Source: Burkholderia sp. WSM2230 | GTDB lineage: Bacteria; Pseudomonadota; Gammaproteobacteria; Burkholderiales; Burkholderiaceae | Assembly (NCBI RefSeq): GCF_000472445.1 | Contig: NZ_AXAJ01000014.1 | Coordinates: 38,308-102,307 of the forward strand | Length of the DNA stretch: 64,000 nt | Direction of reading: 5' to 3' | Shown: in pieces, positions 20,461 through 28,652 of the stretch | Layout of the letters: every line of letters begins with the position of its first letter | Position numbering within the stretch: position 1 is the first letter of the stretch | Translations under genes and position numbers: made by a program | The notes under the pieces: generated by a model | The model's database searches: none | What the model was told of the DNA's origin: nothing | What the model saw: only the letters and a program-made list of their open reading frames with translations

Positions 20461-21186
20461 TTAGAAGCGGTAACCGATGTTGACGTAGGTAACGATCGGG
20501 TTCAGCTTGATCTTGGTTTGCGACTGCACGGTCAGCGTACCCACCGGCGTCCTCGCCTGCGTGTTGAGTTTGGCAGTCGTGCTGAGCGGCAGATACGACA
20601 CCGACACGCCCGCGAACCAGTGCTGATCGAACGCGTAAGTGAAGCCGGCATTAAACACAGGCTCCCACGAACTATCCGTAGTTACGCTGGTCGGACCATG
20701 CAGAACATTTGCTTCGAATGCGCCGTTCGTGATCTTTTCGTCGGTGAACCAGATACGGCTCACGCCGATACCCAGGTACGGACGGAACGTGGCAGTCGGA
20801 GCGTTGAAGTAGTACTTGAACAGCAGAGTCGGGCTCCACTGTTTTGCCTGGCCCAGCTTGCCGAATTTTTCGAGGCTGCCGGTGCCGTTCAGGTCGAACG
20901 AGGGCGGGTAGCCAATCACGAATTCGGTCGCAATGTGATCGGTGATGAAGTAGCCCGCGGTCAGTCCGATGGTGTCGGCCGAACTGAGCGAGGCTCCGGT
21001 ATTTGCTTCTGTGATGTTGGTCGGACTGCCGCCGATGCTTGTCACCCGCAGTGGCTCGCTACTCGATTGAGGCGCAAGATGGAACCAGCCTGTTGAGACA
21101 AAAAAGCTACCGGCCGATTGCGCATGTGCTGCTGTTGTCATGCTGGCTAGCACTGCGATCCCCGTTACGGCCTGTTTTAATTTCAT
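20461..21186 (-). CDS. OmpW family outer-membrane beta-barrel protein
   Basis: Eight-stranded barrel of the OmpW family, which forms a hydrophobic channel. The 241-aa protein has a signal peptide cut near AAHAQSAG, a strand pattern of alternating residues, the family segment GLTAGYFITDHIATEFVIGY with PTLLFKYYF, YLGIGVSRI, and a C-terminal strand ending in Phe (YVNIGYRF), as Bam substrates do. The start is fixed by GGAGGAG just upstream of the ATG. A terminator follows. The function beyond porin-like cannot be told from sequence. Confidence 0.85.
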   Translation of the reverse strand: MKLKQAVTGIAVLASMTTAAHAQSAGSFFVSTGWFHLAPQSSSEPLRVTSIGGSPTNITEANTGASLSSADTIGLTAGYFITDHIATEFVIGYPPSFDLNGTGSLEKFGKLGQAKQWSPTLLFKYYFNAPTATFRPYLGIGVSRIWFTDEKITNGAFEANVLHGPTSVTTDSSWEPVFNAGFTYAFDQHWFAGVSVSYLPLSTTAKLNTQARTPVGTLTVQSQTKIKLNPIVTYVNIGYRF

Positions 21187-21372
21187 ATGTGCTCCTCCAG
21201 AAAAGGCCCGCTCATTATGACCACAACGTTTGAAACTAACCATACGCGGCGGCTAGAGTTTTCTCCCTAAGCCGCGCGCGCTTTCTGGCCTGGCCGCGCC
21301 GCGCCGAACCTTGGCGCATGCGGCTCTTCGGACCTTCGGGTATGTACCAACGCGACTATCGGATACTCCAGC

Positions 21373-22080
21373 ATGGCACGGCTTGCACGTCTTTATGTTC
21401 CTGACCAGCCGCAGCACGTCATCCTCCGCGGACTCGATCAGCAGCCTGCGTTCGTCGACGACCAGGACTACGAACTCTTCATCGACTGTTTGAAAGCGGC
21501 TTCGCGCGACCATCACCTGTCGATCCACGCATATGCGCTGATGCCGGGCGCGGTGCAACTGCTCGTCACTCCGACCGAGGAGTCGAGCCTGCCCAAGGCG
21601 ATGCAGGCAGTCGGGCGCCGCTATGTGGCGCACTTCAACCGCCGCTACGCGCGGCGCGGCACGCTGTGGGAAGGACGCTATCGCGCCACCGTGATCGAGG
21701 GCGAGCGGTATTTTCTGCTGGCGAGCCGCGTCGTCGAAATGTGTCCGGTGCGCATGCAGCTCGTGAGCGCGCCGGAAGACTACCGGTGGTCGAGCTACCG
21801 GCATCACATCGGTCTTACGCTCGACAGCCTCATCACCGACCATCCGCTTTACTGGTCGCTCGGCAACACGCCGTTCGAGCGGCAGCGCGCGTACCGCGAA
21901 CTGTGCGAGCAGCCGCTCGACGAACGCGAGGCAAGCCAGCTTCAGCAGGCTACGTTAAAGGGTTGGGTGCTCGGTAGCGACACGTACCGCGAATGGGCGG
22001 CGCGCGCGGCGAACCGGCGCGTGTCTCCGTTGCCGCGCGGACGGCCGCGCAAGGTGCGCGAGACGCCGCAAGCGCAATAA
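21373..22080 (+). CDS. RAYT/IS200-like Y1 transposase homologue lacking catalytic residues
   Basis: The 235-aa protein has the REP-associated tyrosine transposase fold: an N-terminal RLYVPDQPQHVILRG strand, the AYALMPGAVQLLV segment, the RRGTLWEGRYRA motif and DYRWSSYRHH. The metal-binding HUH motif, normally MPNHVHLL, reads MPGAVQLL (residues 57-64), so both His are gone. The nucleophile, normally Tyr in RYIxxNPVR, is Val120 in SRVVEMCPVR. The rest of the frame is intact, is long, and has local codon usage. This indicates a domesticated, probably DNA-binding protein rather than an active transposase. It lies 295 bases upstream of gltB. No terminal repeats or REP sequences are visible around it. 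Confidence 0.8.
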   Translation: MARLARLYVPDQPQHVILRGLDQQPAFVDDQDYELFIDCLKAASRDHHLSIHAYALMPGAVQLLVTPTEESSLPKAMQAVGRRYVAHFNRRYARRGTLWEGRYRATVIEGERYFLLASRVVEMCPVRMQLVSAPEDYRWSSYRHHIGLTLDSLITDHPLYWSLGNTPFERQRAYRELCEQPLDEREASQLQQATLKGWVLGSDTYREWAARAANRRVSPLPRGRPRKVRETPQAQ

Positions 22081-22375
22081 GCAGTTTGAATCAAGGCTCT
22101 GTGTTTCGAACGGCATCCTGACATGCCGTTTTATTTTGCCCGGTTTTGATATGGCACCAATAAAAATAGGCCGCAATGCACCAAATTGATAATTGGGGAT
22201 CGAACAATACGTTTTATTTGCTATTCCGTTGATTCGTCGCGTATATTCCGAATTCCGGCGTTTTTGACATGCCTTGCAGTCGGCATCTGGAAGCGCCTTC
22301 GCCGTTGCGGGTGTGCACGTGCGGCAATAGAAAAACGGTTTAACGGCCTGTCGGCCCCTCACAGACGGTGTCCCC
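22081..22375 (+). promoter_or_regulatory. AT-rich upstream region of gltB
   Basis: About 295 bases, clearly more AT-rich than the flanking DNA (stretches such as CACCAATAAAAATAGG), containing no gene I can support. It should hold the gltBD promoter and regulator sites. Several weak -10/-35 combinations are possible, so I do not assign a position. Confidence 0.4.
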
Positions 22376-27079
<4,704 letters not shown>

Positions 27080-27182: not shown

Positions 27183-28652
27183 ATGGGCAAGGCAACCGGT
27201 TTTCTCGAGTTCGAGCGCCGCCACGAGGCGTACGAAGCTCCGCTCACGCGTGTGAAGCACTACAAGGAATTCGTCGCGGCACTCACCGACGACGAAGCGA
27301 AGATTCAAGGCGCACGCTGCATGGACTGCGGCATTCCGTTCTGCAACAACGGCTGTCCGGTGAACAACATCATCCCGGACTTCAACGACCTGGTGTTCCA
27401 TCAGGACTGGAAGAACGCGATCGAAGTGCTGCACTCCACGAACAACTTCCCGGAGTTCACGGGCCGCATTTGTCCGGCGCCGTGCGAAGCGGCGTGCACG
27501 CTCGGCATCAATGACGACCCGGTCGGTATCAAGTCGATCGAACACGCGATCATCGACAAAGCCTGGGCCGAAGGCTGGGTCGCGCCGCAGCCGCCGAAGC
27601 ACAAGACCGGCAAGAAGGTTGCCGTCGTCGGTTCGGGCCCCGCAGGTCTCGCGGTCGCGCAGCAGCTCGCGCGCGCGGGCCACGAGGTGACGGTGTTCGA
27701 AAAGAACGACCGCATCGGCGGCCTGCTGCGTTACGGCATTCCCGACTTCAAGCTTGAGAAGTGGCTGATCGACCGCCGCATGCGCCAGATGGAAGCGGAA
27801 GGCGTGACGTTCCGCGCGAACGTGTTCGTCGGCAAGGCCGATTCGCTGCCGCCGTATATCGGCAACACCGCGAAGGAAACCATCACGCCGGAGCAGCTGA
27901 AGGAAGATTTCGACGCGGTGGTGATCGCGGGCGGTTCGGAAACGCCGCGCGATCTGCCGGTGCCTGGCCGCGAGCTGGAAGGCATCCATTACGCGATGGA
28001 ATTCCTGCCGCAGCAGAACAAGGTCAATGCCGGCGACAAGGTCCCGCATCAGCTGCTCGCGAAGGGCAAGCACGTGGTGGTGATCGGCGGCGGCGATACG
28101 GGCTCGGACTGCGTGGGAACGTCCAACCGTCACGGCGCGAAGAGCGTCACGCAGTTCGAACTGCTGCCGCAGCCGCCGGAAGAAGAGAACAAGCCGCTCG
28201 TGTGGCCGTATTGGCCGATCAAGCTGCGCACGTCGTCCTCGCATGAAGAAGGCTGCTCGCGCGATTGGGCTGTCGCCACGAAGCGCCTCGAAGGCAAGAA
28301 CGGCAAGGTCGAGAAGCTGATCGCGGCACGCGTCGAATGGAAAGACGGCAAGATGCAGGAAGTGCCGGGCTCGGAATTCGAAATGAAGGCCGACCTCGTG
28401 CTGCTCGCCATGGGCTTCACGCAGCCGGTGTCGCCGGTGCTCGAAGCGTTCGGCGTCGACAAGGACGCGCGCGGCAACGTGCGAGCCTCGACGGAAGGCG
28501 ACAAGGCGTACTACACGTCGGTGGACAAAGTGTTCACCGCAGGCGACATGCGCCGCGGCCAGTCGCTCGTCGTGTGGGCGATCCGCGAAGGCCGTCAGTG
28601 CGCGCGTTCGGTCGACGCTTTCCTGATGGGACATTCGGAACTGCCGCGCTAA
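27183..28652 (+). CDS. gltD: Glutamate synthase small subunit
   Basis: FAD-containing subunit that takes electrons from NADPH and feeds GltB through Fe-S clusters. The 489-aa protein has N-terminal 4Fe-4S cysteine clusters in [17 protein letters not shown] and [10 protein letters not shown], the FAD dinucleotide fold [17 protein letters not shown], the NADPH fold [13 protein letters not shown], and the C-terminal [14 protein letters not shown]. Full length. It starts at an ATG just after AGAGAAGAGAACC. A terminator follows about 100 bases past the stop. Confidence 0.97.

Follow-up and report, generated by a model that had tools for sequence, protein, structure and literature searches.

The window analysed here is a stretch of 64,000 nucleotides from Burkholderia sp. 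WSM2230 (assembly GCF_000472445.1, contig NZ_AXAJ01000014.1, positions 38,308 to 102,307 of the forward strand), in which an open reading frame at 21373–22080 (+) codes for an intact RAYT/Y1 homologue of 235 amino acids. The stop codon of this gene is followed, after 295 bp, by gltB (22376–27079, +), coding for the large subunit of glutamate synthase, and by gltD (27183–28652, +), which on the grounds of established family knowledge codes for the small subunit. On the other side, an ompW-like porin gene (20461–21243, −) lies between dgt and the RAYT gene in this clade, but is absent from that place in several other genera and families. The region between the RAYT gene and gltB contains a terminator-like hairpin (22108–22137, +), which is unique in the genome and has a conservation of 0.86, and the gltB promoter (22218–22247, +), composed of TTGCTA, an 18 bp spacer and TATATT.

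The product of the gene matches Pfam Y1_Tnp above the cut-off (5.5e-6), whereas its match to NCBIfam REP_Tyr_transpos (51.7 bits) falls below the curated cut-off of that model (80 bits). The AlphaFold2 model of the protein (pLDDT 92) matches the E. coli TnpA-REP/REP-hairpin structure 4er8 with a VIA Z of 16.6 over 156 residues at 2.3 A. Alignment with mobile relatives (MTNHVHLL...RYIELNPVR) showed that the former HUH motif, codons 60–62 (21550–21558, +), now reads A-V-Q, and that within codons 120–124 (21730–21744, +) the former catalytic Tyr (Y---NP context; PMC6006769) is V120 and the former metal-ligand Asn is C124. The C-terminal part comprises a predicted helical extension (residues 158–215; 21844–22017, +), with helices at 158–213 in the model, which appears to correspond to the region described as helix-turn-helix-like in subclass 2.1 proteins (PMC6006769). 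It is followed by a basic, AT-hook-like tail motif RGRPRK (22036–22053, +), of which G223, R224 and P225 are nearly invariant in 87 homologues, although this part of the model is of low confidence.

The gene is present in a single copy in its genome. Eighty orthologues with 90–100% identity were retrieved from Paraburkholderia, Trinickia and Caballeronia, and all of them are open; none has retained H60 or Y120, and H62 was found only once, in Caballeronia glathei (locus L077). In one Paraburkholderia group (loci L064, L066, L069, L072–L076 and L078–L081) the protein carries a C-terminal extension of about 100 residues, which is rich in Gly/Ser and ends in KPGTG(T/A)H. The NG86 dN/dS, calculated on 1910 common pairs by a counting method limited to dS of 0.15–1, is 0.044, compared with 0.074 for gltB, 0.115 for dgt, 0.137 for aroB and 0.235 for ompW. 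The gene was found in 134 of 150 Burkholderiaceae, next to gltB in nearly every locus examined, and 15 of the 16 genomes without it lack gltB as well, although such co-loss is confounded by genome reduction. The main texts of published transposon screens (PMC4993015, PMC9816413, PMC5086560, PMC9166356), supplements not included, do not mention the gene.

A comparison of the positions of RAYT hits and gltB in 150 genomes of the order revealed that the gene lies just upstream of gltB in nearly all gltB-positive members of seven families. The exceptions are two genomes, given here by their codes: G249, from which the gene is absent, and G204, in which the two genes are separated by about 3.8 kb. 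In the sampled other families gltB has no RAYT in front of it, and in several of them dgt directly precedes gltB. In the phylogenetic tree, rebuilt after the removal of long-branch rows, the gltB lineage and 21 mobile-type relatives from elsewhere in genomes fall on two sides of one branch with an SH-aLRT support of 98, and the same split was obtained with the long branches included. The simplest history is a single insertion followed by vertical retention; since the tree is unrooted, however, this inference rests on the empty sites as well. HUH and Tyr are retained by 21 of 22 relatives located elsewhere in the genome, but by only 20 of 62 members of the gltB lineage, within which the catalytic residues changed state at least 7 times. 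Catalysis is thus dispensable for what keeps the gene. A second, also catalytically dead paralogue (about 60–63% identical) occurs elsewhere in some Paraburkholderia and Caballeronia (L085:2986–3693, L086, L087 and plasmid hits H1–H9), often on large secondary replicons.

In agreement with the first-pass annotation, which proposed an intact, catalytically dead RAYT kept for a host function tied to gltB, the position next to gltB is conserved, the gene is under strong purifying selection and the catalytic positions are substituted in its near orthologues. One must bear in mind, however, that outside the Burkholderia/Paraburkholderia/Caballeronia/Trinickia clade several orthologues adjacent to gltB keep HUH and Tyr, and the substitution is therefore a recurrent loss inside an ancient host gene and not a defining feature of it. 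The same annotation suggested that the protein binds the region 22081–22375, and although direct evidence of binding is lacking, this suggestion gains strong comparative support from two sites described below.

Members of this subclass are known to be flanked by terminal inverted repeats (TIRs) with the consensus GGGGWSAS (PMC3733652, PMC6006769), and the mobile relatives examined here show them as AAATGGGGTCAGACCCCATTT-like ends. The same sequence is contained in the gltB promoters of RAYT-bearing genomes. A matrix trained only on the TIRs of relatives not associated with gltB was significant (p <= 0.05, dinucleotide shuffles) in 36 of 55 gltB upstream regions of RAYT-positive genomes and in 1 of 19 of RAYT-negative ones (Fisher 6e-6, not corrected for phylogeny). 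In this clade the sites are diverged, and some individual loci (L022, L062 and L071) miss significance with this matrix. In the window, site A (22150–22164, +), TATGGCACCAATAAA, is a diverged TIR half-site, whereas site B (22191–22211, +), AATTGGGGATCGAACAATACG, is a diverged TIR palindrome centred at 22201, 17 bp upstream of the −35 hexamer (22218–22223; the −10 hexamer is at 22242–22247). The centre of site B lies 17–19 bp upstream of −35 in most of 42 loci, and the TATGNCCCYAWTWAA-like site A lies 45–47 bp upstream of the B centre in 33 of 33. Within 79 close loci, site A (majority fraction 0.90), site B (0.82) and the promoter (0.96) are conserved, while the spacer between A and B (0.62) and the middle of the leader (0.60) are not. 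A third conserved element, ATGCACCAA (TGCACCA/TGGTGCA; 22176–22184), is located between A and B and recurs in other families in either orientation; it seems to resemble an NtrC half-site.

The joint A+B score was significant in 48 of 54 adjacent loci and in none of the gltB promoters of genomes without the gene, including two that have lost it (genome G001, locus L226, and genome G249, locus L184), which were the only gltB-positive genomes of this kind available. In eight genomes the gene is not next to gltB (six with the gene elsewhere, G006 with the gene about 13 kb away, and G204 with an insertion), yet the gltB promoter still carries A and B in 8 of 8 by the joint score, although only in 4 of 8 (p <= 0.05) by the independent matrix. 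Among the displaced copies, those of two genera (loci L104–L107) carry Trp at the former Tyr position. That the sites follow the presence of the gene rather than its position argues for a trans-acting DNA-binding role and against mere relict ends. A genome-wide search with the composite pattern gave 5 hits in 150 genomes, all between RAYT and gltB, and no control hits; its Paraburkholderia version gave 4 hits in 150 genomes, again with no control hits, the hit in the own genome lying in the gltB promoter. It should be noted that the consensus of A and B used in the geometry, joint-score and pattern analyses was drawn from these very promoters, and hence those p-values are partly circular, which applies neither to the independent matrix nor to the genome-wide positions. 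The TIR upstream of the gene itself, which is absent from this clade, is retained mainly by catalytically intact copies (11 of 20 versus 2 of 42), while the site on the gltB side is retained either way. Although the species are not independent, this is what selection for promoter control, and not for transposition, would leave.

Other potential targets were searched for without success. No dispersed palindromic repeat was found in 464 kb of the own genome or in 200 kb of each of two genomes with intact copies, the repeats detected being tandem, including those of 177 bp inside a probable coding region of the own genome (L172:13056–14290). No GTAG hairpins were present within 400 bp of the gene in 24 loci. 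The terminator-like hairpin and a motif upstream of the RAYT gene are each unique in the genome, and the search for known RNA families near the gene gave only a sub-threshold match to MicL elsewhere (17.7 bits against 56). No second copy of the own site was detected in the genome, so the regulon may be this operon alone. No convincing A or B sites were found near the second dead paralogue (L085–L087).

Taken together, these data are best explained by a domesticated transposase of the RAYT/TIRYT (Y1) type, which inserted once between dgt and gltB in a common ancestor of seven Burkholderiales families and was kept as a host gene, its 3′ transposon end becoming a two-site operator in the gltB promoter. 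In many lineages, including this one, the cleavage residues and the 5′ end were then lost, while the fold, the C-terminal helices, the basic tail and the operator were kept. The most likely mechanism, inferred from sequence comparison in the absence of binding, expression or mutant data, is that the dead protein binds A and B as double-stranded DNA, probably through its C-terminal helices and the RGRPRK tail, and regulates the transcription of gltBD. With B centred about 53 bp and A about 102 bp upstream of the presumed start site, activation looks somewhat more likely than repression. We hold this explanation with fairly good confidence.

It is also possible, though unlikely, that A and B are bound by another host regulator, for example an NtrC-, Lrp- or IHF-like protein, and that the RAYT protein does something else, such as binding structured single-stranded DNA or RNA. 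The conserved element between the two sites, the control of E. coli gltBDF by Lrp and IHF (PMC1784095) and the fold of a hairpin-DNA binder are compatible with this view; however, the sites resemble the TIRs of this very transposase family and are missing both from the gltB promoters of relatives without RAYT and from the two genomes that lost it. An even less likely alternative is that the protein acts at many genomic sites, for example on replication-fork or folded single-stranded DNA, such as its relatives recognise, and that its place near gltB is merely historical, since no second copy of the site was found in the genome and the promoter geometry is fixed across families.

Selfish retention of the gene, or a still partly mobile TIRtron with A and B as relict transposon ends, seems similarly improbable. 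About a third of the gltB-lineage copies do keep HUH and Tyr, and several keep a 5′ TIR, but the gene is single-copy here, no phage copies were found, no REP-like repeat population was detected in 464 kb, the dead active site is under strong purifying selection and the sites remain at gltB where the gene has moved away. Despite the loss of all catalytic residues, a decaying pseudogene is refuted by the open frame in all 80 near orthologues and by the dN/dS value.

RAYTs are widely viewed as domesticated transposases of unknown host benefit, and this lineage offers a concrete, testable one. On a reading that is somewhat more likely than not, it would represent a first class of bacterial transcription regulators made from catalytically dead HUH/Y1 transposases, with the exapted ends of the ancestral transposon as operators and with the control of central nitrogen assimilation (gltBD) in most Burkholderiales as their role. 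No report of a Y1 transposase regulating gltB was found in the literature searched. If correct, many "transposase" annotations beside gltB in Burkholderia-type genomes hide a metabolic regulator, and the independent catalytic losses constitute natural replicates.

Among known systems, the protein shares with TIRYT, RAYT group 1 or TnpA-Y1 subclass 2.1 (PMC3733652, PMC6006769) the Y1 fold, a length of about 235 amino acids, what appears to be the C-terminal extension with the SS motif (DYRWSSYRHH), ancestral TIRs fitting GGGGWSAS and the absence of REPs found nearby. It differs in that HUH, Tyr and Asn are all replaced, the 5′ TIR is absent, the gene is present as a single copy at one locus and the former 3′ end now lies inside a host promoter; the phylogeny published in 2018 kept only sequences with intact HuH and Y, so dead members were not in it. 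E. coli TnpA-REP (RAYT group 2; 4er8) has a similar core fold, but it is catalytic, cuts single-stranded REP hairpins with GTAG, has a repeat population as its partner and lacks this C-terminal extension. In transposase-derived transcription factors of eukaryotes, such as the PIF/harbinger-derived protein (PMC11893794) and CSB-PGBD3 (PMC3459987), a transposon protein or its DNA-binding ability has also been reused to regulate nearby genes, but these have unrelated transposase folds, whereas the case described here concerns a bacterial operator of a single operon.
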